Assembly (NCBI RefSeq): GCF_001889605.1
Contig: NZ_CP018171.1
Coordinates: 4,610,501-4,674,500, forward strand
Direction: 5' to 3'
DNA length: 64,000 nt
Origin: Aquibium oceanicum
GTDB lineage: Bacteria > Pseudomonadota > Alphaproteobacteria > Rhizobiales > Rhizobiaceae
The translations under genes and the position numbers were made by a program. Below are positions 30,360 to 58,373 of this stretch, in pieces (the first letter of the stretch is position 1; every line of letters begins with the position of its first letter). Under the pieces are notes generated by a model. That model was given only the letters and a program-made list of their open reading frames with translations, was not told the origin of the DNA and did no database searches.

Positions 30360-31142
30360 TCATCGCCCCTTCCACACCGGATCCCTCTTCTCTGCAAACG
30401 CGCGAAACCCTTCCATGTTGTCCTCCGAGGCGTAGAGCGCGTCGACCGTACGGAACTTGCGCTTGGTGATCCAGTTCATCGCGTCCTGGAACCCCATCGC
30501 CTCCGCCTCGCGCGCCACTTCCTTGATGGCGGCGAAGACCAGCGGCGGCCCGCCGGCCAGAAGCCGGGCGACCTCCCATACGCGCGCCTCCAGCCGGTCC
30601 GCCGGCACCACCTCGTTGACGAGGCCCCAGCGGTGCGCCTCGGCGACGTCCATCCAGCGCCCGGTGAGCAGGAGGTCCATGGCGACGTGATAGGGGATGC
30701 GCTTCGGCAGCTTGACTGTGGCGGCATCCGCCAGCGTACCGGCGCGGATTTCGGGCAGGGCGAAGGACGAGTGGTCCGAGGCGTAGATCAGGTCGCAGGA
30801 GAGTGCCAGTTCGAAGCCGCCGCCGACCGCCATGCCGTTGACGCAGGCGATGACCGGCTTGTTCATGTCGATGAGTTCCTGCAGGCCGGCGAACCCGCCG
30901 ACGCCGTAGTCGCCGTCGACCGCATCGCCGCCCGCCGCCGCCTTCAGGTCCCATCCGGCCGAGAAGAACTTTTCGCCCGCCGTCTTGACGATGGCCACGC
31001 GCAGCGCGGGATCGTCGCGGAAGGCCCGAAAAGTCTCGCCCATCAGCCGCGAGGTCGCCAGGTCGATGGCGTTGGCCTTCGGCCGGTCGAGCGTGATCTC
31101 CAGAACCGCGCTTTCGGTTCGGGTGGTGATGACGTCGGTCAT
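30360..31142 (-). CDS. caiD: Enoyl-CoA hydratase/isomerase, CaiD-like
   Basis: A 260-residue crotonase. The oxyanion hole is formed around FSAGWDLKAA near residue 62 and VNGMAVGGGFELALSCD near 105; the catalytic Glu region is FALPEIRAGTLADAA near 135. The C-terminal segment FRAFAEKRDPVWKGR is like CaiD, crotonobetainyl-CoA hydratase. In E. coli CaiD hydrates crotonobetainyl-CoA to carnitinyl-CoA. It overlaps the upstream ATP-grasp reading frame by ATGA. With an acyl-CoA dehydrogenase, a CoA ligase and carnitine dehydrogenase in the same unit, a path from gamma-butyrobetaine to carnitine is plausible. A general enoyl-CoA hydratase role cannot be excluded. Confidence 0.85.
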   Translation of the reverse strand: MTDVITTRTESAVLEITLDRPKANAIDLATSRLMGETFRAFRDDPALRVAIVKTAGEKFFSAGWDLKAAAGGDAVDGDYGVGGFAGLQELIDMNKPVIACVNGMAVGGGFELALSCDLIYASDHSSFALPEIRAGTLADAATVKLPKRIPYHVAMDLLLTGRWMDVAEAHRWGLVNEVVPADRLEARVWEVARLLAGGPPLVFAAIKEVAREAEAMGFQDAMNWITKRKFRTVDALYASEDNMEGFRAFAEKRDPVWKGR

Positions 31143-31768
31143 TCGATGCTCCTCGTCTGTGTCGCCGACGAAGCCGGCGTCGTGAATACCATCAGCGCGT
31201 CCGCGATCCACGCGCCTTGCTCGCATGCGATCAGAGGGTTGATATCGAGCTCTTCAAGCGTCCCCGCGTTCGCCATGGCAAAATCCGCGATCCCCAGAAC
31301 CGCATCGACCACCGCATCGATGTCCGCCTTCGGCCGGCCGCGAAACCCGTCCAGCAGCGGGAAGAGCTTCAACCCGCGCAGCGCCACCTCGACATCCTCG
31401 CGCGATGCCGGCAACAGCAGCGTCGCGGAATCCTTCAGAAGCTCCACCATGACGCCGCCAGACCCGACCGTCATCACCGGCCCGAACAACGCGTCGCGCG
31501 TGATGCCCATGATGAGTTCGGCCACCCCGCCGGTCACCATGCGCTCGACATAGAGGCCGGATCCCAGCCCCGCCATCGCCCGCGCCGCGGCCCCCACCGC
31601 CTCCGCGTCGCACAGGTTCAACCTCACCGCGCCGGCTTCCGACTTGTGGGCGATCCCCAGCGCCTTCACCGCGACCGGATACCCGAGCGCCACCGCCGCC
31701 GCCACCGCCTCGTCTGGCGTCGCCACCCGCCGGCCCTCAGGCACCGGCAGCCCCGCCGAGGCAAGCAT
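31139..31768 (-). CDS. Acyl-CoA synthetase (NDP-forming), ATP-grasp part, separated from the N-terminal part by a repeat
   Basis: About 209 residues from the first available ATG. This is the ATP-grasp_5 domain of an ADP-forming acyl-CoA synthetase: LPVPEGRRVATPDEAVAAA, GYPVAVKALGIAHKSEAGAV, VERMVTGGVAELIMGI, FGPVMTVGSGGVMVELL and LDINPLIA. In-frame homology continues upstream of the ATG (QPDEATAKA), so the domain's true N-terminus is cut into the repeat at 31804-31934. The frame is -1 relative to the upstream part. No ribosome site is evident before the ATG at 31768. Its TGA overlaps the caiD ATG. Archaeal enzymes of this class exist as separate alpha and beta chains, so a split product may still work; a frameshifted gene is equally possible. 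Confidence 0.75.
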   Translation of the reverse strand: MLASAGLPVPEGRRVATPDEAVAAAVALGYPVAVKALGIAHKSEAGAVRLNLCDAEAVGAAARAMAGLGSGLYVERMVTGGVAELIMGITRDALFGPVMTVGSGGVMVELLKDSATLLLPASREDVEVALRGLKLFPLLDGFRGRPKADIDAVVDAVLGIADFAMANAGTLEELDINPLIACEQGAWIADALMVFTTPASSATQTRSIE

Positions 31769-33333
31769 GGCTTTTGCGGTTGCTTCGTCCGGCTGACCCG
31801 CATCCTCTCCCCCCGTCGGGGGGAGAGGTGGCCCGGCGAAGCCGGGACGGAGAGGGGGAACCCGCCGAGCTCGACGCCAGTCCCCCTCTCCGCCTCGCTA
31901 CGCTCGGCACCTCTCCCCCCAATGGGGGGAGAGGATGGAAGACCCCACGCCTCCCCCACGCCCGCCGCCGCCTCCGCCGCATCCACTGCCTCGGCGATCC
32001 CGTAGAGCGGCACGATCCCGCGCGAGATCAGCCCGGCGCAGTATTCCTCCGGCAGGTTCTCCGGCATGGAAGTGACGATCGCGCCCTTGCCGCCGTTGGC
32101 CTTCAGCGCCGCCTCGAAGGCGTTCACAGTCGGCCACCAGTCGACGTCCGTGCAGCGGTCGTTGCGCGGGAAGTCGAGCACGAGCATGTTCAGGTCGAAG
32201 CCGCCCGAGACCATGGCCGAAAAGGTGGCGGTCATGGCCGGCAGGTTATTCCAGATGAAGGTGTGGTAGTCGAGCGGATTGGCGACCGCCACCAGCGGCC
32301 CGAGCGTGGCTTTCACCCGCGCCCGGTGCTCGTCCGATAGCTTGGGAAAGCGCACCCGCCGCCCCTCGACGCTGTCCGCCATCACCGAGGCCTCGCCGCC
32401 GGAACAGCTCATCGATGAAAGCCGGTTTCCGCCGATCGGACCGGCGACGGCGAGCAGCTTCAGCGCCTCCAGGAAGGACGGGATTGTCGCCACGCGCGCG
32501 ATGCCGAGCCGCTTCAGGAAGGCGTCTGATGCCGCGTCCGATCCCGCGAGCGAGGCGGTGTGCGACACCGTCGCCATGCGCGCCTGCTCCGAACGGCCGA
32601 CCTTCATAGCCACGATCGGCTTCTTCAGTTCCCGCGCACGCGCCGCCAGCAGCTCGAAACCCTCGACTGAATCGAACCCCTCGATGTGGAGGCCGAGCGC
32701 CGACACCCGCGAATCCTCGATCAGCCCCAGCGCCATCTGGGACAGCCCGGTCTGCGCCTGATTGCCTGCCGTCATGATGTAGGCGACCGGCAGCCCGCGC
32801 TTCTGCATCGTCATGTTGATGGCGATGTTGGAGGACTGCGTGATAATCGCCACGCCCCGCGCGCCTTCGGCGAGCCGCTCGCCGCCGTGCTGGTCGGGCC
32901 ACAGCAGCGCCCCGTCGGCATAGTTGATCAGCCCGTAGCAGTTAGGCCCGATCACCGGCATGTCGCCCGCCGCGGCGATCAGGTCGGCCTGCAGGCGCGC
33001 CCCGTCGGCGTCGTCCGCGCCGGCCTCCAGGAACCCCGAAGCGAAGCAGATCGCGCCGCCGGCGCCGCGGGCCGAGAGCTCGCGCACCATGTCGATGGTC
33101 AGATGACGGTTGACGCCGATAAAGGTGGCGTCCGGCACGCCGGGAAGATTGTCGATCGAACGGTAGGCCGGTAGGCCCTCCACGACATCCTTGGTCGGGT
33201 GCACCGGCCAGATCGTGCCGGCGAAGCCCATCTTCAGCGACTGCCTGACGACGTTTGACCCGAAGAATCCCCCGCCGATCACCGCGATCGTCTTCGGGCG
33301 CAGCAGGCGGGAAAGATCGCGCGGCGCGTTCAT
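31666..33333 (-). CDS. Acyl-CoA synthetase (NDP-forming), CoA-binding part, reading into a repeat doublet
   Basis: Conserved sequence covers about 460 residues from the ATG at 33333: an N-terminal CoA-binding Rossmann domain (RPKTIAVIGGGFFGSNVVRQS), GPNCYGLINY, ITQSSNIAINM and the succinyl-CoA-ligase-like domain with SCSGGEASVMADS. It ends near GIVPLYGIAEAVDAAE. From about 31945 the frame runs through both halves of the inverted repeat at 31804-31934 as arginine- and proline-rich nonsense and stops at 31666, on the wrong frame over the ATP-grasp coding region. An intact enzyme would be about 700 residues. The start overlaps the DUF2161 stop as ATGA. In context it may activate gamma-butyrobetaine or carnitine with CoA. 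Confidence 0.75.
   Translation of the reverse strand: MNAPRDLSRLLRPKTIAVIGGGFFGSNVVRQSLKMGFAGTIWPVHPTKDVVEGLPAYRSIDNLPGVPDATFIGVNRHLTIDMVRELSARGAGGAICFASGFLEAGADDADGARLQADLIAAAGDMPVIGPNCYGLINYADGALLWPDQHGGERLAEGARGVAIITQSSNIAINMTMQKRGLPVAYIMTAGNQAQTGLSQMALGLIEDSRVSALGLHIEGFDSVEGFELLAARARELKKPIVAMKVGRSEQARMATVSHTASLAGSDAASDAFLKRLGIARVATIPSFLEALKLLAVAGPIGGNRLSSMSCSGGEASVMADSVEGRRVRFPKLSDEHRARVKATLGPLVAVANPLDYHTFIWNNLPAMTATFSAMVSGGFDLNMLVLDFPRNDRCTDVDWWPTVNAFEAALKANGGKGAIVTSMPENLPEEYCAGLISRGIVPLYGIAEAVDAAEAAAGVGEAWGLPSSPPIGGRGAERSEAERGTGVELGGFPLSVPASPGHLSPRRGERMRVSRTKQPQKPCLPRRGCRCLRAGGWRRQTRRWRRRWRSGIRSR
31804..31934. repeat. Inverted REP doublet (family B) inside the acyl-CoA synthetase gene
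   Basis: Two inverted units lie within the gene: 31804-31858, with hairpin CCTCTCCCCCC-GTC-GGGGGGAGAGG and second hairpin GGCCCGGCGAAGCCGGG, and 31881-31934, its inverse. About 22 bases separate them. On the coding strand the distal unit contains runs of six C and six G. Confidence 0.85.
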
Positions 33334-34064
33334 TGTCCCGCTCCGGTCTGCGGCAGGTCGGCGAAGGGGCGCGCGGTCGAGAGCTTTCCAAGTTCGGACC
33401 CGTAGTCGACGATCGCTTCCGTCCCCTTCGGGCTCAGGCCATAGACGCCGGTCCCGACGCGCTCGAACCAGCCGTAGTGATTGTCGGCCATAAGCCTCCG
33501 GGCGTGTCCGACGCCCGTATAGCGCGCGACCAGCGCCGCCTTGGTCGGCCCCAGCACGTTGAGCAGGCTGAGGCACAGCAGCGCCTCCTGCCGGTAGGCC
33601 GTCACGAGGTTGCGCCGTGTCGTCCCGCCGGTGTTCGGATCGCCGACCAGCTTGGCGAACTCCTTCAGCAGCCGCCCCCGACGCGCCTTCGACTGGCGCG
33701 GACGGTAGGGCTCGGGATCGCAGTGGATCTCCACGAACCCGTCTGCCAGCTTCACCGTCAGCAGCCCGAGCCCGAGCCGCCGGCAGAGCTTCCGGTTCTC
33801 CGCAAGCGCCTTCAGCGAAGCCCGTCCCGTGCCGCGCGGCACGGCGATGTAGACGGCGTCGGTCAGCGCCTGCCGATCGATCGCCTGATGGTAGAGCGAC
33901 AGCGAGAACCCCGATTTCAGCTCCACGACCACCGGCTCGTCGCCGTCGCGCACGGCCACGAGATCGGCAGCCCCGATCTCGCCCTTCACCTCGTAGCCCT
34001 GCCCTTCGAGCATGCGCTTGACCGGCAGATAGAGGTCCGCTTCGCGGATCGCCGCTTTCGCCAT
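33330..34064 (-). CDS. DUF2161 protein, probable PD-(D/E)XK nuclease fold
   Basis: A 244-residue protein matching DUF2161. Residues 1-60 contain a PD-(D/E)XK-like core: glutamate in IREADLYLPVKRML, aspartate in GAADLVAV and the ExK pair in VVVELKSGFS. The middle is HQAIDRQALTDAVYIAVP. The C-terminal half looks like a winged helix (TKAALVARYTGVGHARRLMADNHYGWF). No enzymatic activity is established for this family to my knowledge. It is unexpected between an acyl-CoA dehydrogenase (8 bases upstream) and an acyl-CoA synthetase (ATGA overlap), where it appears to be cotranscribed. Confidence 0.8.
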   Translation of the reverse strand: MAKAAIREADLYLPVKRMLEGQGYEVKGEIGAADLVAVRDGDEPVVVELKSGFSLSLYHQAIDRQALTDAVYIAVPRGTGRASLKALAENRKLCRRLGLGLLTVKLADGFVEIHCDPEPYRPRQSKARRGRLLKEFAKLVGDPNTGGTTRRNLVTAYRQEALLCLSLLNVLGPTKAALVARYTGVGHARRLMADNHYGWFERVGTGVYGLSPKGTEAIVDYGSELGKLSTARPFADLPQTGAGQ

Positions 34065-34072
34065 CGGGCGGA

Positions 34073-35236
34073 CTAGCCTCCCACCGCCCTGAGCAGTGCG
34101 CGCGAGATGATGTGGCGCTGGATCTCCGAGGTGCCCTCCCAGATGCGCTCCACCCGCGCGTCGCGCCAGATACGCTCCAGTGGCAGGTCGTCCATCAGGC
34201 CCATGCCGCCGTGGATCTGGATCGCCTCGTCGGCCACGAAGGCGAGCATCTCGGTCGCCTTCAGCTTGGCCATGGCCATGTCCTCGTCGGTTACCGTGCC
34301 GGCGTCATACTTCCACCCCGCCTCGAAGGTCAGGAGGTTCGCCGCCTTCAGTTCCGTCGCCATGTCGGCGAGTTTGAAGGAGATACCCTGGAACTTTCCG
34401 ATCTGTTGGCCGAACTGCTGGCGCTGCGCGGCATAGTCGATCGAATGCGCCAGCGCCCGCTCCGCCCGGCCCAGGCATGTCGCGGCGACCTGGAGCCGCG
34501 TCGCGCCAAGCCACGAATTGGCGACCTCGAACCCTTTGTGAACCTCGCCCAGCACCTGGCTCGCCGGCAGCCGGCAGTCGTCGAATTCCAGCACCGCGTT
34601 GGTGTAGCCGCGATGCGAGACGTTGCGGTAGCCCTCGCGCACCGAAAATCCCGGCGTTCCCTTGTCGACGAAGAAGGCGGTGATCTTCTTGCGCTTTCCC
34701 CGTGGCGTCTCCTCCTCGCCCGAGGCCATGAAGACGATGGCGAAGCCGGCGATGTCGGCATGGCTGATGAAATGCTTGGTGCCGTTCAGCACCCAGTCGG
34801 TCCCGTCCTGAACCGCGCTCGCCTTCATGCCGCGCAGGTCGGAGCCGGCGCTTGGCTCGGTCATCGCCAGGCAGTCCCAGGTCTCGCCGCGGATGCAGGG
34901 ATAGAGATACTTCTCCTTCTGCTCGTCGGTGCCGGCAAGAAGGATGTTGGAAGGCCGCGCAACGCAGGTCCAGTGCAGCGCGTAGTTGGCGCGACCGAGC
35001 TCCTTCTCGTAGAGCAGCCAGGTCAGCGTATCGAGCCCGGCGCCGCCGACCTCTGTCGGCATGTTGGCCGCGTAGAGCCCCGCTTCCATCGCCTTCTTCT
35101 GCAGCTCACGGATCAGGTCCATCTCCAGCCGCCCCGAGCGCTCCACCTCGCGCTCGTGCGGATAGAGCTCGTTCTCCACGAACGCCCGCGTGGTCTCGAC
35201 GATGAGAGACTGTTCCTCGGTCAGGCCGAAATTCAT
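34073..35236 (-). CDS. Acyl-CoA dehydrogenase
   Basis: A 387-residue flavoprotein of standard length. Signatures are AMTEPSAGSDL near residue 130, TKHFISHADIAGFA near 155, and IHGGMGLMDDLPLERIWRDARVERIWEGTSEIQRHII near the C-terminus, where the last glutamate region includes the catalytic base. It binds FAD and introduces a trans-2 double bond into an acyl-CoA, passing electrons to ETF. Placement with CaiD-like, CoA ligase and carnitine dehydrogenase genes suggests gamma-butyrobetainyl-CoA as substrate, but sequence alone does not prove this. It starts 19 bases downstream of the sulfatase gene. Confidence 0.9.
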   Translation of the reverse strand: MNFGLTEEQSLIVETTRAFVENELYPHEREVERSGRLEMDLIRELQKKAMEAGLYAANMPTEVGGAGLDTLTWLLYEKELGRANYALHWTCVARPSNILLAGTDEQKEKYLYPCIRGETWDCLAMTEPSAGSDLRGMKASAVQDGTDWVLNGTKHFISHADIAGFAIVFMASGEEETPRGKRKKITAFFVDKGTPGFSVREGYRNVSHRGYTNAVLEFDDCRLPASQVLGEVHKGFEVANSWLGATRLQVAATCLGRAERALAHSIDYAAQRQQFGQQIGKFQGISFKLADMATELKAANLLTFEAGWKYDAGTVTDEDMAMAKLKATEMLAFVADEAIQIHGGMGLMDDLPLERIWRDARVERIWEGTSEIQRHIISRALLRAVGG

Positions 35237-35255
35237 GTCGTCACCAACTCCCGCT

Positions 35256-36893
35256 TCATCCGTGCACGTCGCCCAGGTCCCAGGCCTTCAGGAGGATCGG
35301 CTGCATCCGGTTCCAGTCGGCGACGCCCGTCGCCTCGGCCCAGCCTTCGTAGTCCCGCGTCAGGCGCGCGGTCAGCGGCTCGTTGCGGCCCATCATGTCG
35401 TTCAGTTCCGTGCGGTCTTCCTCCATGTCGTAGAGTTCCCACGGCTGATTGAACTTCCGGACGAGCTTGAACTTGCCGTCGCGTATCGCGCAGTTGCCCT
35501 CGTGCTCGAAGAAGAGCGGACGTTCCCGCTCCCAGGATCGGCCTTCCAGCAGCGGCAGGATGTTTTCGCCGTCCATCGCCTGGATCGCCTCGCCGCCGAG
35601 TTCGGATGGATAGCCGACGCCGGTCGCGGCGAGGATGGTCGGTAGGACGTCGATCACGTGGCACGGTGAATGGACCACCGTCTGCGGGCGGAACCGCTTC
35701 GGCCATTGCACGATGAGTGGCGTCGAGATGCCTCCCTCGTGCACCCAGTGCTTGAATAGCCGGAACGGCGCGTTGGAGACGTTGGCCCACGGCAGGTCGT
35801 AGCTCATGAAGGTCAGCGGACCGCCGGGCCTCAGCGTCGGCCGGTTGCCGATCTCGATCTTGCGGCCGTCATTGTGCCGGTCGGAGTAGTACTTGCCCCA
35901 GCCGTCCTCCGCCATGAACTCCGCACAGCCGCCATTGTCGGACAGGAAGAGGATCAGCGTGTCGTCGAGAATGCCGAGTTCCTTCAGGCGGGAGGTGACG
36001 CGCCCGATGTTCTGGTCGAGCCGGTCGATCATCGCGGCATAGGCGGCCATGCGGGCAGCCTCCCAGTCCTTGACCTTCACGTCTCCCCAGCCCGGCGCCG
36101 CCTCGTCGCGCGGCGAGATGTTCCATTTGTGTTGTAGCACCCCGCGCGCCTGCATCTCCTCGTGCCGCGCCGTGCGCGTGGCGTCCCAGCCGCCGGAATA
36201 GACACCGTCATAGCGCGCGATGTCCTCTTCCGGCGCCTGCAGCGGCCAGTGCGGCGCGTGGTGGGCCAGATAGAGGAAAAACGGCTGGTCGAGGCTGACG
36301 CTCTCGTCGATCATCTGGATCGCGTTGTCGGTGATTGCATCCGTCAGGTAGAAGTCGGACGGCGACACCTCGACGCGGGAATCGTCGCGCATCATGTAGT
36401 GCGGCGAGAAGAAGTTCATCACGCCATCGACGAAGCCGTAGAAGCGGTCGAAACCGCGCTGGCGCGGCGTCGGATGTTCGACGTCGCCCACACGCCAGCT
36501 GTCGACGAGTCGCGCTGTGTAGTCGCCGCCGACGTGCCACTTGCCCGACATCAGCGTCCGATAGCCGCCGAGCCGCATCAGTTCGGCAATCGTGGCGGCA
36601 TCGTTGCGCAGGAACCCCTGGTAGGCCGGGGTTCCGAGATTGGTCCCCATGTGACCGATCCCGGCCTTGTGCGGATAGAGCCCGGTGAGCAGGGAGGCAC
36701 GCGTGGGGCAGCAGCGCGCGCAATTGTACATCGCCGACAGGAGCACGCCGTTGTGCGCCAGTGCGTCGATGTTTGGCGTGCGGATCTCCGATCCCATGAT
36801 GCCGAGATCGGAAAACCCCATGTCGTCGACGAGCACCAGAACGACGTTCGGCCGCTCCGTTCTGCCCGTTTCGGTCTGCCCTGGCTGCATCAT
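35256..36893 (-). CDS. Arylsulfatase-like sulfatase
   Basis: A 545-residue type I sulfatase. NVVLVLVDDMGFSDLG at the N-terminus gives the calcium-binding aspartates. The modification motif is CCPTRASLLTG near residue 60, matching CxPxR followed by TG, so the first cysteine would become formylglycine. KWHVGG and LAHHAPHWPLQAP provide further active-site residues, and FLSDNGGCAEF the late DN pair. No signal peptide is present, so the enzyme is likely cytoplasmic. The substrate is unknown. It lies in the carnitine unit between carnitine dehydrogenase (62 bases upstream) and acyl-CoA dehydrogenase. A sulfated betaine or choline-like compound is only a guess. Confidence 0.88.
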   Translation of the reverse strand: MMQPGQTETGRTERPNVVLVLVDDMGFSDLGIMGSEIRTPNIDALAHNGVLLSAMYNCARCCPTRASLLTGLYPHKAGIGHMGTNLGTPAYQGFLRNDAATIAELMRLGGYRTLMSGKWHVGGDYTARLVDSWRVGDVEHPTPRQRGFDRFYGFVDGVMNFFSPHYMMRDDSRVEVSPSDFYLTDAITDNAIQMIDESVSLDQPFFLYLAHHAPHWPLQAPEEDIARYDGVYSGGWDATRTARHEEMQARGVLQHKWNISPRDEAAPGWGDVKVKDWEAARMAAYAAMIDRLDQNIGRVTSRLKELGILDDTLILFLSDNGGCAEFMAEDGWGKYYSDRHNDGRKIEIGNRPTLRPGGPLTFMSYDLPWANVSNAPFRLFKHWVHEGGISTPLIVQWPKRFRPQTVVHSPCHVIDVLPTILAATGVGYPSELGGEAIQAMDGENILPLLEGRSWERERPLFFEHEGNCAIRDGKFKLVRKFNQPWELYDMEEDRTELNDMMGRNEPLTARLTRDYEGWAEATGVADWNRMQPILLKAWDLGDVHG

Positions 36894-36955
36894 GCGCTTC
36901 CCCTATCTTACGGCCCGGATCTCCCGGGGCCCAGCGGTATTCCCGGATACGAAGA

Positions 36956-38032
36956 CTACCCCCTCTTTCCCTTCGCGGCTCCCTTCTTCTTTGCCTTCTC
37001 GGCCTTTGCCTTCTCGGCCGCCTTCGACACCTTCGCCTTCGCCGCCTTGCCGAGCTGCTTCACGTAGGCATTGTGCAGTTCGCCGGCGCCCCAGCCCTTG
37101 CCCTTCTCGGCCTTCGCCAGCGCTTCCATGATCCCGACCAGGTTCTCGTCGCGGATCTTTTCCAGCTCCCGGATCGACCATTTGCCGGACTGCTCGTCGG
37201 ACTGGGTGGCGACCAGGTCGACGAGTTCGTCGTTGAACTCAGGAACGTCCATCAGCTTGGTCCAGGGCCAGGCCAGTGCCGGGCCGAACTGGGCCATGAA
37301 GTGGCGCATGCCGGCCTCGCCGCCCGCGATGCGGTAGGTTTGGAACATGCCCATCTGCGCCCAGCGCAGGCCAAAGCCGTAGCGCATGATGTCGTCCAGT
37401 TCCTCGACCGTGCAGATGCCGTCCTTGATCATCCACAGCGCCTCGCGCCAGGCCGCCTCCAGCAGGCGGTTGCCGACGAAGGCGTCGATCTCCTTGTTGA
37501 TGACGACGCATTTCATGCCGATCGAGGTATAGGCCTCCCGCGCGCGTTCGACGAACTCCTTGCCCGTCTTCTCTCCGGGCACCAGTTCGTTGATCGGCAA
37601 CAGATAGACCGGGTTGAACGGATGGGCGACGAGGAAGCGCTCGGGGTGCTTCATGTCCTTCGCCATGTCGGTCGCCTTGAAGCCGGACGTCGAGGAGCCG
37701 ATCAACGCATCGGCGGGCGCCGCGGCCTCGATCTCGGCCAGCGTCTTCAGCTTCACGTCAAGCCGCTCCGGCACGCTCTCTTGGATGAAGTCGGCGCCCG
37801 AAACCGCATCGGCGATGGAGCCCGCATAGGTGATCCTGCCCTCCTTCGGCAGCCCCTTCACCGCCATGCGCTTGTAGGCGCGCCGCGCGTTCTTCATCAC
37901 CTCGTCGACCTTGCGCTTGGCCTCGGGGTGCGGGTCGAACACCGTAACGTCAATGCCGTTCAGCGCCAGCCGCGCGATCCACCCGCCGCCGATGACGCCT
38001 CCCCCGATGCAGGCGGCCCTGGTGATGGTCAT
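36956..38032 (-). CDS. lcdH: L-carnitine 3-dehydrogenase with a lysine/alanine-rich C-terminal tail
   Basis: A 358-residue member of the 3-hydroxyacyl-CoA dehydrogenase family. The N-terminal Rossmann fold has GGGVIGGGWIARLALNG; IQESVPERLDVK and IGSSTSGFKATDMA follow; HPFNPVYLLPINELVPG near residue 140 holds the catalytic histidine, and NRLLEAAWREALWMIKDG the second domain. These match carnitine dehydrogenase (CdhA), which oxidises L-carnitine to 3-dehydrocarnitine with NAD+. About 35 extra C-terminal residues are a low-complexity Lys/Ala tail (AEKAKAEKAKKKGAAKGKRG). Some rhizobial versions instead carry a fused thioesterase. It overlaps the HD gene stop as ATGA. Confidence 0.9.
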   Translation of the reverse strand: MTITRAACIGGGVIGGGWIARLALNGIDVTVFDPHPEAKRKVDEVMKNARRAYKRMAVKGLPKEGRITYAGSIADAVSGADFIQESVPERLDVKLKTLAEIEAAAPADALIGSSTSGFKATDMAKDMKHPERFLVAHPFNPVYLLPINELVPGEKTGKEFVERAREAYTSIGMKCVVINKEIDAFVGNRLLEAAWREALWMIKDGICTVEELDDIMRYGFGLRWAQMGMFQTYRIAGGEAGMRHFMAQFGPALAWPWTKLMDVPEFNDELVDLVATQSDEQSGKWSIRELEKIRDENLVGIMEALAKAEKGKGWGAGELHNAYVKQLGKAAKAKVSKAAEKAKAEKAKKKGAAKGKRG

Positions 38033-38658
38033 GCGGATGCTCCGTTTCTTTCTCTTGCAGTTTCGGGATCGCTCAGGGGCACGCGTTCGCCCGGCCGCAT
38101 GACGGACGGGTCGTAGGCCTTGCGCGAGAATACCTCGGTCACAAAGGGACGGAAGAAATCGATCGGCAGTGTGTCGTAGCCGGGATCGAAGCTCGTCTGG
38201 TCCCAGCGCTCGCAGAATTGGTCGCAATCGTCGAAATAGGGGTGACCGGCGAACTTGTCCCGCGCGTGCGGATCGCCGCCGACATGATGCGCATAATACT
38301 TGCGCTGGAAGTCGCCGTGCTTTTCGACCACCCATGTGCACTGCTCGCGCACGAAGGGCTTCAGGATGGCCGCGGCGTATTCGTCGTGATTGTATGGCGC
38401 GTAGATGTCGCCGACGTCGTGCAGCAGGGCACTGACGATCCAGTCTGTATCGGCGCCATCGCGCCAGGCGCGCGTCGCGGTCTGCAAAGAATGCCCGAGG
38501 CGGGTAATCTTGTAGCCCGACAGGCTCTCATCGAGTTTCACCAGCGCCTCGAGCAGCCTGTCGCCGGTCTTGGCGGCGAAGCCGATCTCATGCTCGTTGA
38601 GGAACTCGTAGTCCTCCCGATCGCCGTCCTTCATCGCGGTGAACTTGACCGTCTTCAA
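38029..38658 (-). CDS. HD-domain protein in the carnitine unit
   Basis: A 209-residue HD-superfamily protein. The histidine of SLQTATRAW precedes the HD pair in VSALLHDVGDIYAPYNHDEYAAAIL, and WVVEKHGDFQRKYYAHHVGGD supplies further histidines; such proteins bind a metal pair and often act as phosphohydrolases or, as in MIOX/PhnZ relatives, as mixed-valent diiron oxygenases. The pattern HDVGD...H is compatible with either. The function here is unknown. It lies between the BKACE gene (41 bases upstream) and carnitine dehydrogenase (ATGA overlap). In Pseudomonas the corresponding cluster has a betainyl-CoA thioesterase instead, which is absent here. Confidence 0.82.
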   Translation of the reverse strand: MKTVKFTAMKDGDREDYEFLNEHEIGFAAKTGDRLLEALVKLDESLSGYKITRLGHSLQTATRAWRDGADTDWIVSALLHDVGDIYAPYNHDEYAAAILKPFVREQCTWVVEKHGDFQRKYYAHHVGGDPHARDKFAGHPYFDDCDQFCERWDQTSFDPGYDTLPIDFFRPFVTEVFSRKAYDPSVMRPGERVPLSDPETARERNGASA

Positions 38659-38699
38659 CGAAGAGCCTCCTCAGTCTGAGTGGTCGCAAAATCCGCGCG

Positions 38700-39617
38700 T
38701 CAGGCAGATACCGGCGCCCGCTTGGTGAGCCCCAGCTTCTTGCGCACCTCGTCCGGCCCGATCACCCGCGCGCCCATGTTCTCCACGACCGTTACGGCGC
38801 GCTCGACCAGCTGCGCATTGGTCGCCAGCACACCCTTGTCGAGCCACAGATTGTCTTCCAGCCCCACGCGCACGTTGCCGCCAGCCAGCACCGCGGCGGC
38901 GGCATAGGCCATCTGGTTGCGCCCGAGCGAGAATGCCGACCAGGTCCAGTCCGCCGGCACGTTGTTGACCATGGCCATGAAGGTGTTCAAATCGTCCGGC
39001 GCGCCCCAGGGCACCCCCATGCAGAGCTGCACCAGCGCCTGTGGCGCCAGCGTGCCCTCCTTCACCAGTTCCTTGGCGAACCACAGATGACCGGTGTCGA
39101 AGGCCTCGATCTCCGGCTTCACGCCGAGTTCGGTCATCATGCCGCCCATGGCGCGCAGCATCCCGGGCGTGTTGGTCATCACGTAGTCGGCCTCGGCGAA
39201 GTTCATCGTGCCGCAGTCGAGCGTGCAGATCTCCGGCAGGCATTCGGCCACGTGCTTCACGCGTTCGGCCGCGCCCGCCATGTCGGTGCCCTTGGGGTTC
39301 AGCGGCAGCGGCTTCTCGGTCGGACCGAACACCATGTCGCCGCCCATGCCGGCCGTGAGGTTCAGCACCACGTCGACCTCCGCCTCGCGGATGCGCTCGG
39401 TCACCTCGCGGTAGAGCGCCACGTCGCGGCGCGGCGCGCCCGTCTCGGGATCGCGCACGTGGCAATGCACGATCGCCGCCCCCGCCCGCGCCGCATCGAT
39501 CGCGGACTCCGCGATCTGCTTGGGCGAGCGCGGCACGTGCGGGCTGCGGTCCTGCGTGGCACCAGAGCCGGTGACGGCGCAGGTGATGAAGACCTCGCGG
39601 TTCATGGTGAGCGGCAT
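38700..39617 (-). CDS. BKACE-family beta-keto acid cleavage enzyme (probable dehydrocarnitine cleavage)
   Basis: A 305-residue DUF849/BKACE protein, a zinc TIM barrel that condenses a beta-keto acid with acetyl-CoA and cleaves it. Zinc ligands are in VHCHVRDPETG near residue 48 and the glutamate further on; ITCAVTGSGA at the start and CTLDCGTMNFAE, VGLEDNLWLDKG are family hallmarks. With carnitine dehydrogenase next door, the likely reaction converts 3-dehydrocarnitine and acetyl-CoA to betainyl-CoA and acetoacetate. The ATG at 39617 has GGAGG about ten bases upstream and begins the unit; an ATG four codons later is less favoured. Confidence 0.9.
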   Translation of the reverse strand: MPLTMNREVFITCAVTGSGATQDRSPHVPRSPKQIAESAIDAARAGAAIVHCHVRDPETGAPRRDVALYREVTERIREAEVDVVLNLTAGMGGDMVFGPTEKPLPLNPKGTDMAGAAERVKHVAECLPEICTLDCGTMNFAEADYVMTNTPGMLRAMGGMMTELGVKPEIEAFDTGHLWFAKELVKEGTLAPQALVQLCMGVPWGAPDDLNTFMAMVNNVPADWTWSAFSLGRNQMAYAAAAVLAGGNVRVGLEDNLWLDKGVLATNAQLVERAVTVVENMGARVIGPDEVRKKLGLTKRAPVSA

Positions 39618-39648
39618 GGAACGATTTCCTCCAGATGCGCCGAAGCAA

Positions 39649-39782
39649 CCCCTCTCCGTTTGCCTTCGGCAGCCACCTCTCCCGGGGGAGAGGAGACGCA
39701 GCCGGAAGCCTTGATACCCATCCTCTCCCCCTCGCGAAGTGATGGAGAGGTGGCACGGGCGAAGCCCGAGACGGACAGGGGG
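39649..39782. repeat. Inverted REP doublet (family B) upstream of the carnitine unit
   Basis: Facing units lie at 39649-39695 (hairpin CCTCTCCCGGGGGAGAGG) and about 39722-39782 (CCTCTCCCCC...GATGGAGAGGTGGC followed by GGGCGAAGCCCG). They occupy most of the 233-base divergent region between the BKACE gene and cdhR, so they lie in or near both promoters. Confidence 0.8.
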
Positions 39783-39850
39783 AAGCCGGTCGATGTCCAT
39801 GCAACTTCCGCCTCCTTGCATCTCCATGCTTCACATTTTACGAATTCATC

Positions 39851-55261: not shown

Positions 55262-56743
55262 CTAGCCACGAATGGCAGCCGCTTCCGCTGAGATCGCGGC
55301 GCGCATGCCCTCGGAAAGCATTCGGTCCAGCCTTCCGGTGAGGGCTTCCCGCCAGTCGCCAGAGGCGGCGAGCTTCTCGGGAAACAGGCCGGGAAGCGCG
55401 AGCAGTTCTCGGACCAATGCCGCGGCGTCCCCTCCCGCGCTGGCGATCCGTCCGGAGATTTCGCCCTCGCGAGGGTCGCGCAGGAGGTAGGTCTCCCCGC
55501 GCTCGTTGACGCCGGTCGCATAGCGCATCCAGGCGGCGACCGAGAAGGCATAGGCATCGATCGGCTGGCCGCGTTCCTGTGCCACCAGGGCCGGCTCGAG
55601 CAGCCGCTGCGGCAGCTTCTGCGTCCCGTCCATGGCGATCTGATAGGTCTGGTGCGCGATGGCGGGGTTGGCGAAGCGCTCCCTCAGGTCCCGCGCATAG
55701 TCCGCGAGGTCGATGCCGGGCACCGGATCGAGCGTCTTCGCCGCCGCGTCCATGTGGCGTTCAATGACCGTGACGAGGTCGGCATCCTTCATGCAGTCGC
55801 GCACGTAGCTGTGCCCGGCGAGGTAACCCGCATAGGCCAGCGTGGAATGCGCGCCGTTGAGCATCCGGAGCTTCATCTTCTCGTAGGGCGCGACGTCCGT
55901 CACGAACAGCGCGCCGCCGGCCTCCCAATCCGGGCGCCCGGCGACGAAGTCGTCCTCGATGATCCACTGCGTGAAGGGCTCGGTCTCCACCGCCGCGCGA
56001 TCCTCCTGGCCGGTCAGGCGGGCCGCGTCGGCGAGCGTGGTATCGGTGCCGGCCGGCGTGATGCGGTCGACCATCGTGGATGGGAAGCTGACATTGGCCT
56101 CGATGAACGCGGCGAGACCGACGTCGCGCTCGCGCGCGAACTCCAGCACCAGCCGCTTCACGACCTTGCCGTTGCTGGGGAGGTTGTCGCAGCACAGCAC
56201 CGAGAAGCCCGGCCGGCCGCTTTCCTTGCGCAGCCGCAGCGCCTCCACGATGTAGCCGACCGCGCCGACAGGGTGTTCAGGGTCTCTCAGGTCGGCGGCG
56301 ATCGCCGGATGCCCCCGGTCGAGACCGCCGGTGCGCCCGTCGAGCCCGTAACCCTTCTCCGTGATGGTGAGGCTGACGATCCGCGTTTCGGGTGCGGCCA
56401 TCGCGGCCAGCACCGCGTCCGATTCCCGCGGCGCCACCAGCACTTTGGCGATGGAGCCGATCACCCGCGCCGAGACGCCTTCAGGACCGCGCACCAGAAG
56501 CGTGTATAGCCCGTTCTGCGGGTTCATGGCGTCGGCGACGTCGCCGGAGCGCAGGCTGACGCCGGTGATCATCCAGTCGCCGCCAGAGGCACCGAGCGCA
56601 TCGTCCGTGCACACCGCCTGATGCGCCTTGTGGAACGCGCCGGTGCCGATATGGACGATGCCGGATTTGAGGGCGGCGCGGTCGTAGGCGGGGGTGGCGA
56701 CGGTGGAGGGCAGGTCCGATGCGACGGAGAGGCGGGTGGTCAT
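55262..56743 (-). CDS. uxuB: Mannitol dehydrogenase family protein, probable D-mannonate oxidoreductase (fructuronate reductase)
   Basis: A 493-residue polyol-specific long-chain dehydrogenase. The N-terminal Rossmann part has IVHIGTGAFHKAHQAVC near residue 30 and FSVLCCDNLPSNGK near 185. The catalytic signature EKMKLRMLNGAHSTLAYAGYL near 290 gives the Lys...Asn...His set. The family includes fructuronate reductase and mannitol or arabinitol dehydrogenases; the neighbouring uxuA makes fructuronate reductase the best call. It is followed by the ABC importer genes after a 220-base gap with its own promoter. Confidence 0.87.
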   Translation of the reverse strand: MTTRLSVASDLPSTVATPAYDRAALKSGIVHIGTGAFHKAHQAVCTDDALGASGGDWMITGVSLRSGDVADAMNPQNGLYTLLVRGPEGVSARVIGSIAKVLVAPRESDAVLAAMAAPETRIVSLTITEKGYGLDGRTGGLDRGHPAIAADLRDPEHPVGAVGYIVEALRLRKESGRPGFSVLCCDNLPSNGKVVKRLVLEFARERDVGLAAFIEANVSFPSTMVDRITPAGTDTTLADAARLTGQEDRAAVETEPFTQWIIEDDFVAGRPDWEAGGALFVTDVAPYEKMKLRMLNGAHSTLAYAGYLAGHSYVRDCMKDADLVTVIERHMDAAAKTLDPVPGIDLADYARDLRERFANPAIAHQTYQIAMDGTQKLPQRLLEPALVAQERGQPIDAYAFSVAAWMRYATGVNERGETYLLRDPREGEISGRIASAGGDAAALVRELLALPGLFPEKLAASGDWREALTGRLDRMLSEGMRAAISAEAAAIRG

Positions 56744-56867
56744 CGGGCGGAACGCATGTGCAGGTTTGCAGTCCGGTTGTCCCAACGTCTCAAAAGGCTG
56801 TCGGGTTCAGACATTTCCTGCGCGAACGGCGGACGAATCTCGCATGACTCGTGGGCTGCAGAAAGCA

Positions 56868-57031
56868 CCCCCTCACCGCCTCGCTTCGCGAGCCACCTCT
56901 CCCCCTGCTCGGGGGAGAGGATACGCAGCTTCGGCATCGCGCCAATGCCTTTGCGCACGAGCGAGATTGGGGCGGCGCTTTTCCTCTCCCCCGGGCAGGG
57001 GGAGAGGTGGCCCGAAGGGTCGGTGAGGGGG
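56868..57031. repeat. Inverted REP doublet (family B) between uxuA and uxuB
   Basis: Facing units at 56868-56920 (hairpin CCTCTCCCCCTGCTCGGGGGAGAGG) and 56983-57031 (CCTCTCCCCCGGGCAGGGGGAGAGG then TGGCCCGAAGGGTCGGTGAGGGGG) are separated by about 60 bases. They occupy the middle of the 321-base gap 56744-57064, which otherwise holds nothing recognisable. Confidence 0.85.
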
Positions 57032-57064: not shown

Positions 57065-58267
57065 TCACCGCCCAAAATTCAGCCCCGCCATCACCCCGCG
57101 CAGTTCCGCCAGGCCTTTCAGCCGGCCGATCGCGGGATAGCCGGGCTGGGCGCCGCGGTGGAGATCGTCGAGGATGTCCTGGCCGTGGTCGGGCCGCATG
57201 GGGATTTCGGCGTCCGCCCTGCCCTCGCCGCGCCGCCGCTTCTCCTCGTCGAGGAGGGCGGCCACCACCGCGACCATGTCGGTCTGGCCGGAAAGGTGCT
57301 CGTCCTCGAAGAAGGAGCACGGCGTCTCTTCCGTGTCGCGGCGCACGTTGCGCAGGTGCACGAAGTGAATGCGCGGCGCCAGCCGCCGCACCATCGCCGG
57401 CAGGTCGTTGTCGGGACGCGCGCCGAGCGAGCCGGTGCAGAAGGTGACGCCGTTGGCGGAGATGTCGACGGCGTCGAGCACGGCGACATAGTCCGCCTCT
57501 CGCGACATGATGCGCGGCAGGCCGAGCAGCGGGAATGGCGGGTCGTCGGGATGGCAGCAGAGCCTGAGCCCCAGCCGCTCCGCGTCCGGCGCGACCTCAG
57601 CCAGGAAGTCGATCAGGTTCTTGCGCAGCCTGTCGGGGCTGATGCCGTCATAGGTCGAAAGATGCTCCTGGAGTTCGGGCAGCGACCAGCTTTCGACCGC
57701 GCCGGGCAGACCCGCAGTGACGTTGGCGGCGAGTTCTTTTCTGCGGTCCTCGCTCATGGCGCGGAAGCGCTTTTCGCCTTCCGCCGCCACTTCCGGCAAA
57801 AAATCTTCCGCCGCGCCGGAGCGCTTGAGGATGTGGATGTCGAAGGCGGCGAAGTCGAAAAGGTCGAAGCGCATCGCCTTTCCGCCATGCGCCACCGGCC
57901 AGGCGAGGTCGGTGCGCGTCCAGTCAAGCACCGGCATGAAGTTGTAGCAGATCACCTCGATACCTGCTCGCGCCAGGTTTTCGAGGCTGCGGCGGTAGTG
58001 CACGATATGGGCGCGCCAGTCGCCGGTCTGGGTCTTGATCGCCTCGGAGACGGGTAGGCTTTCCACAACCTCCCACTTCAGGTGGTTCATCGAGCCGTCG
58101 CCGGCAAACGCCACCTCGCGCTGCCGCTTCTCGATCTCCTCGGGCCGCCAGATCTCGCCGGTCGGGACATGATGAAGCGCGGTGACGATGCCCTCGACGC
58201 CCGCCTGGCGCGCATCGGAGAGCGTCACCTTGTCCCTAGGACCGAACCACCGCCACGTCTGCCGCAT
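57065..58267 (-). CDS. uxuA: Mannonate dehydratase
   Basis: A 400-residue UxuA. WFGPRDKVTLSDARQAGVEGIVTALHH at the N-terminus, ICYNFMPVLDWTRTDL near 110, LRLCCHPDDPPFPLLGLPRI near 225, and NGVTFCTGSLGARPDND and FVHLRNVRRD near 285-315 are family hallmarks that include the metal-binding His and Cys residues. It dehydrates D-mannonate to 2-keto-3-deoxygluconate after UxuB has reduced fructuronate. It is the first gene of the unit. The ATG at 58267 is preceded by a possible start seven codons earlier. Confidence 0.93.
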   Translation of the reverse strand: MRQTWRWFGPRDKVTLSDARQAGVEGIVTALHHVPTGEIWRPEEIEKRQREVAFAGDGSMNHLKWEVVESLPVSEAIKTQTGDWRAHIVHYRRSLENLARAGIEVICYNFMPVLDWTRTDLAWPVAHGGKAMRFDLFDFAAFDIHILKRSGAAEDFLPEVAAEGEKRFRAMSEDRRKELAANVTAGLPGAVESWSLPELQEHLSTYDGISPDRLRKNLIDFLAEVAPDAERLGLRLCCHPDDPPFPLLGLPRIMSREADYVAVLDAVDISANGVTFCTGSLGARPDNDLPAMVRRLAPRIHFVHLRNVRRDTEETPCSFFEDEHLSGQTDMVAVVAALLDEEKRRRGEGRADAEIPMRPDHGQDILDDLHRGAQPGYPAIGRLKGLAELRGVMAGLNFGR

Positions 58268-58373
58268 CGAACCTCCCCGCAAGCGCAAGCATGTATCGGG
58301 TTTTTGCCCGGCAAGTGCAATGGGGACGGCGATTCCGGCCCGTCTTCCGGCGTGGATATGTAAGCGCGCGGCG

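Follow-up and report, generated by a model that had tools for sequence, protein, structure and literature searches.

An acyl-CoA synthetase linker that seems to take up palindromic repeats many times, with a broken or misread copy in Aquibium oceanicum

Why does an acyl-CoA synthetase gene change its reading frame at a palindromic repeat? The question is raised by a gene of Aquibium oceanicum that lies in the 64,000 nucleotides (nt) analysed here (contig NZ_CP018171.1, positions 4,610,501 to 4,674,500; hereafter the window), and whose two conserved parts are read in different frames on either side of an inverted repeat doublet. The earlier note on this DNA stated in its title that the repeat splits the gene. 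This is wrong as stated, since the frame is kept in 38 of 40 orthologues with a repeat. From the comparison of related loci, we consider it highly probable that a tolerant linker between the two domains repeatedly captures repeats in frame, and that in the window either a small change in length has recently put a captured repeat out of frame or the assembly is in error.

The gene is laid out as follows:

31666 to 33333, minus strand: open reading frame (ORF) in frame A, with a CoA-binding and Succ-CoA-ligase-like part (alpha part) and an out-of-frame tail
31139 to 31768, minus strand: ORF in frame B, counted from its first ATG, GTG or TTG, with the ATP-grasp part (beta part)
31945 to 31947, minus strand: conserved Trp codon of the GEAW motif, which opens the interdomain linker

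Frame A starts with an ATG at 33333 and, as the earlier note had described, crosses both halves of the doublet before it ends with a TGA at 31668-31666. Frame B closes with a TGA at 31141-31139, and the peptide QPDEATAKA precedes its ATG at 31768; that the ATP-grasp part continues there, in the -1 frame, had also been proposed and is borne out by the translation and by a match to ATP-grasp_5. The Pfam scan placed CoA_binding_2 and Succ_CoA_lig in frame A. These three domains make up the set of the ADP-forming acyl-CoA synthetase (ACD) superfamily, which is complete in the window gene but distributed over two frames; one continuous chain, as in single-chain ACD, was not found there. Homology places the gene among the single-chain enzymes of this superfamily, in which the order is CoA-binding part, linker, ATP-grasp part.

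Three sources supplied the related loci: 60 relatives, the best 80 of 349 named genome contigs, and 394 family genomes. At least 210 of the family genomes gave a match with E no higher than 1e-20, and the 92 best rows of the family match list added 83 new places. The first locus comparison left out loci with an alpha identity below 45%, duplicates (L001, L002, and L039-L043) and one locus with no beta part (L029). The main set, with an alpha identity of at least 69%, comprises 172 loci, 145 of them distinct. Among the best 80 of the 349 named contigs, the closest alpha part is that of Aquibium sp. ELW1220 (88%). The nearest of all by alpha part, G002 (97% over 148 residues), is uninformative on the linker because its contig stops 151 nt past the match and the C-terminal part of alpha was not matched.

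In 142 of the 145 distinct loci, a single frame runs through the alpha and beta parts, the exceptions being the window (alpha-beta gap of 191 nt), L140 (248 nt) and L154 (67 nt). The commonest gap is 99-108 nt (84 of 145 loci), and in-frame gaps range from 54 to 282 nt, equal to a tether of 18 to 94 residues. Among 20 hand-picked distant family members, 19 are in frame with a gap of 99-105 nt and one has no beta part in reach. These counts bear on the idea, one of three readings offered by the earlier note, that the window encodes two separate functional chains like the archaeal alpha/beta ADP-forming synthetases. Two-chain relatives are known (4xyl, chains A and B), and the beta part looks constrained and has an ATG at 31768. 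The three loci that are not single-frame, however, are frame breaks without a clean two-gene layout. In the window gene, the two ORFs overlap by 103 nt, no Shine-Dalgarno-like motif occurs in the 32 nt upstream of the ATG, and a start at this ATG leaves positions 1-18 of the ATP-grasp profile unmatched; no start signal of its own was found for a complete beta chain. We regard two functional chains as very improbable.

What fills the longer linkers? We called a repeat where linker DNA has copies elsewhere in all fetched DNA, with the orthologous gene itself excluded, which is an operational definition. Among linkers of at least 153 nt, 37 of 40 have such copies, compared with 1 of 14 at 120-141 nt and 2 of 91 at no more than 117 nt. 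This gives 40 repeat-bearing loci including the window, 38 of them in frame. Counted with one locus per genome, repeat-bearing linkers occur in 40 of the 92 family genomes that have an orthologue with at least 69% alpha identity. The repeats start close to the GEAW Trp codon: the median start is 6 nt downstream of the codon (n = 40; quartiles -2 and 12.75).

Sorted by eye, the inserts form five groups (35 loci), with 5 loci outside them, and groups F1 and F3 have opposite-strand matches in different loci. The groups cannot be claimed to be unrelated because single linkage (blastn E 1e-6, at least 40 nt) joins 38 of the 40 repeat linkers in one cluster. A quick tree with 99 rows implies a minimum of 22 changes in repeat presence and of 35 in group; the minima are 18 and 30, respectively, on a careful tree of 74 rows, from which 25 of the 99 were dropped as unsure or redundant. 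Sister loci vary in both the group and the orientation of the repeat, and on the careful tree well-supported sisters carry differing inserts, e.g., L053/L055, L014/L175, L012/L015, and L164/L169. Comparison and trees together suggest that the same linker captured different repeats many times in this part of the family.

Several results weigh against this picture. Only 15 of the 80 named loci, many of them Mesorhizobium, have a linker repeat. "Repeat" is an operational label, and copies elsewhere are missing for 16 of the 54 linkers of at least 120 nt. The change counts on the trees are blind to gain versus loss. Frame loss shows no significant tie to the repeat (2 of 40 with a repeat against 1 of 52 without; Fisher p 0.58). 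In strongly conserved beta columns, 6 changes are specific to the window and 2 to L010, its sister, a small count that would fit an older loss. Finally, the abstract of PMC11494057 terms the corresponding loop of Nmar_0206 highly conserved. In the other direction, the repeat count may be low because the linkers of L141, L144, L146, L011, L107, and L198, scored as repeat-free, encode peptides such as PPSGRP or ISPLDGEMA that by eye resemble decayed repeats.

The neighbourhoods of the 80 named loci (886 kb) contain 91 repeat-like blocks, of which 15 lie in the linker, 11 on ORFs and 65 elsewhere; this is a biased census because the linkers themselves served as queries. The 11 ORF blocks overlap other ORFs by a crude rule or lie at the ends of the synthetase's own ORF: by coordinates, an ORF start is no more than about 300 nt away for 7 of them, 2 sit at the 3' end of the synthetase gene and the remaining 2 are stubs of 30 nt. 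In L048 (7109-7257) and L049 (7154-7302), 3'-terminal repeats of the synthetase gene are apparently read into the C-terminus of the protein.

The encoded peptide itself appears to be under little constraint. The ratio of nonsynonymous to synonymous substitution rates (dN/dS) is 0.44-1.22 for repeat-encoded codons (8 pairs). Both conserved parts have lower values in 10 pairs, 0.06-0.15 (alpha) and 0.12-0.32 (beta). This contrast suggests that frame and openness are kept, residues hardly, and that drift is almost free. In an AlphaFold2 model of L124, which has the reversed doublet in frame (21 sequences; mean predicted local distance difference test score, pLDDT, 82; predicted template modelling score 0.82), residues 481-516 of the repeat-encoded linker have a pLDDT below 50, as do residues 1-12, 265-270, and 360-363. 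The flanking blocks 461-470 and 521-530 reach 95 and 90. The repeat-encoded linker is hence predicted to be disordered. Foldseek ranked single-chain DddX (7cm9), PatZ and Nmar_0206 (8wzu) as the top matches to this model, followed by two-chain archaeal enzymes. Nmar_0206 has an 18-residue solvent-exposed interdomain loop, W452-K469, found in 72.5% of 138 superfamily sequences (part of PMC11494057), and the Trp of GEAW in the window probably corresponds to W452.

The explanation that we favor can be put in steps. The linker would tolerate foreign sequence, so palindromic repeats that land in a stop-free frame with a length divisible by three would survive. Surviving repeats, in frame by comparison with relatives, would be translated as a tether that is predicted to be disordered. 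The window linker holds such a doublet, but the frame does not continue across its spacer, which leaves the CoA-binding part unconnected to the ATP-grasp part. Were the loss real, the gene would yield a CoA-binding chain ending in a nonsense tail, and an active synthetase would probably be missing. A bolder version, in which the linker is a true insertion hot spot to which several mobile repeat groups are steered, the hairpin acts on the gene, e.g., by ribosome pausing between the domains, and the enzyme is turned off and on again within a lineage by small length changes in the repeat, appears distinctly unlikely to us.

Where, then, was the frame lost in the window? The relevant features are:

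31801 to 31937, no strand assigned: repeat doublet of two inverted units, with outer arms 31801-31830 and 31908-31937
31910 to 31934, no strand assigned: proximal outer palindrome (C6/G6)
31804 to 31828, no strand assigned: distal outer palindrome (C6/G6)
31843 to 31897, no strand assigned: inner arms (31843-31859 and 31881-31897) and doublet spacer
31898 to 31900, minus strand: TAG of frame B, within the proximal unit
31853 to 31878, minus strand: interval of coding-frame loss, with the frame A match to locus L174 upstream (AERGT to 31879) and the frame B match downstream (LRPGF from 31852)

The inverted palindromic doublet that the earlier note had drawn at 31804-31934 is present with both palindromes, and so is the TAG of frame B in the proximal repeat, read at 31900-31898. 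The outer inverted arms are 30 nt each and 93% complementary. RNA from 31950 to 31790 is predicted to fold with -124 kcal/mol (z -7.8), and 0 of 200 shuffled sequences were equally stable.

The doublet is also present in L174, with the same orientation and in frame; the reversed doublet is in frame in L104, L166, L128, and L096 as well as in L124. In L174, the doublet reads SSPPVGGRGAERSEAERGT, then LRPGFAGPPLPPMGGEE. In the window, the SSPPVGGRGAERSEAERGT stretch is matched in frame A and the LRPGFAGPPLPPMGGEE stretch in frame B, and the frame B likeness sets in at 31852, a position within the distal unit's inner arm. Because the match switches from frame A to frame B between the halves, the frame change lies in the spacer, 31878-31853, an interval that includes a C5 run (31858-31854). 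In-frame relatives of this doublet group have a gap of 186 or 192 nt, and the window has 191 nt. It had been held that any restoring slip must lie in the distal unit, at its runs of C6 and G6. These runs exist, but frame B is stop-free from 31897 onward, and the comparison with L174 rules out a break in them.

The earlier note had also considered that slippage or programmed frameshifting on the repeat might yield full-length protein. There are six runs of 5 or 6 identical bases in 31769-31945, and the hairpin is strong. Against this, no in-register X XXY YYZ heptamer occurs between 31902 and 31769, runs of six are short for slippage, and the 142 single-frame loci need no shift; frameshifting seems extremely improbable. 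It is the third reading of the earlier note, disruption or sequence error, that fits best.

Alternatively, the doublet was inserted out of frame and the gene was broken at insertion. The linker of the sister L010 is short and shows no detected repeat, and the quick tree does not make L174 the sister of the window; the doublets of the window and L174 are therefore not proven to share an ancestor. However, the doublet lies at the same distances from the Trp codon and from the beta part as in L174, and its two halves match L174 in the frames that a spacer change in an in-frame doublet would produce. We consider a break at insertion unlikely.

As to whether the gene is dead, the beta part of the window has 12 window-specific residues against 15 specific to L010, and dN/dS is 0.15 in both parts. 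Relaxation of the beta part is not clearly indicated by these comparisons. As alpha and beta parts still look constrained, either the loss occurred recently or the sequence contains an error.

An assembly or base-calling error in the very stable hairpin, with an intact single-chain gene in the living strain, is a sub-case of the explanation by a tolerant linker. The constraint on both parts, the hairpin of -124 kcal/mol and the C5 run inside the interval point to it, as does L140, from a five-contig genome (G322), which also breaks near a homopolymer. On the other side, the window's genome is in two contigs (5.32 Mb) with a completeness of 100 and a contamination of 0.02, and the C6/G6 arms of both outer palindromes are still balanced. 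Among 55 chosen ORFs in the window, 7 same-strand overlaps were flagged: one is the synthetase, five are between different Pfam families and one (35 nt) was unscanned. By this test, the assembly does not look indel-rich, although the test is partial and misses breaks without overlap. A sequencing error is a real but somewhat doubtful possibility, and we rank a real, recent frame loss somewhat above it.

In L140, the frame is broken within a group F4 repeat, near a C7 run at the start of the repeat; its sister L150 is in frame. The earlier note had considered relatives with the same split and no repeat. One relative, L154, is frame-broken although its short linker shows no detected repeat, and a group F1 repeat is present in L104, its sister; nearly all other loci are unbroken, as counted above.

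What kind of repeat is the doublet? Repetitive extragenic palindromic sequences (REPs) are short palindromic units found across a genome, mostly intergenic and often in inverted pairs, and the doublet matches this description. A blastn search against its own genome gave 28 rows, 2 for the gene itself and 26 in 12 other regions. By a crude ORF composition rule, 6 of these regions are clear of the chosen ORFs and 6 overlap one, in its first 212 nt or its last bases. There are 13 exact palindromes, 2 of them in the synthetase gene; a 13th region, taken for an exact palindrome only, has no blastn block. A REP-associated tyrosine transposase of the Y1_Tnp family in the same genome was set aside as a candidate: Y1 transposase (PF01797) gave 0 matches in the window's genome at E 0.001, with the control positive in 5 of 14 genomes. 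No known RNA family matched in the window at gathering scores.

A second doublet of the same kind lies at 56868-57031, in the gap between ORFs 55262-56785 and 57065-58288, with its palindromic heads inward instead of outward. A single related unit (39719-39788) lies within the first codons of ORF 38700-39827 (BKACE), perhaps upstream of the true start, as the Pfam match begins at residue 79. Neighbors of the synthetase gene in 30360-39827 include an enoyl-CoA hydratase family gene, whose best match, crotonobetainyl-CoA hydratase, is under the cut-off, an acyl-CoA dehydrogenase, a 3-hydroxyacyl-CoA dehydrogenase and BKACE. In appearance, this is a catabolic cluster, perhaps for carnitine-like compounds, the substrate being a guess.

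Proteins of Rickettsia and other genera are known to contain palindromic repeats in frame. Rickettsia palindromic elements (RPEs) are alike in that palindromic repeats of about 100-150 nt lie in frame inside conserved proteins and are apparently tolerated (parts of PMC2229807 and PMC10969869). They differ in that RPEs occur in many genes of one genus, whereas here one enzyme linker is concerned in dozens of genomes, with several repeat groups, two of them in both orientations. Moreover, the window's own copy has lost its frame and so is no in-frame repeat in a conserved protein; such repeats, with translation predicted, are those of the 38 in-frame loci. Intragenic REPs have been listed, and different REPs lie at about one site of the orthologous recB gene in two Xanthomonas species (part of PMC3733652). 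This resembles the present case, which differs in extent (40 of 92 family genomes rather than two species) and in its interdomain position. REPs seldom overlap coding regions, according to part of PMC12306157. Nmar_0206 (8wzu) and DddX (7cm9) share domain order and fold with the synthetase, and the Nmar_0206 linker also begins at a Trp. It differs in its length of 18 residues, against the range of in-frame gaps measured here, and the available parts of the sources on these two enzymes mention no repeats. In the open-licence PMC literature, no title among the best-ranked matches concerned repeats in this linker.

Translated palindromic repeats are known from Rickettsia and from scattered genes; the case described here is one enzyme linker into which different repeat groups have seemingly been taken many times. 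Of such repeat-filled linkers, the copy in the window is an ordinary example, either broken or misread. The family as a whole offers a natural series of insertion experiments on how repeats enter proteins and decay, and the linker series may show the effect of a tether of varying length on a two-domain enzyme.

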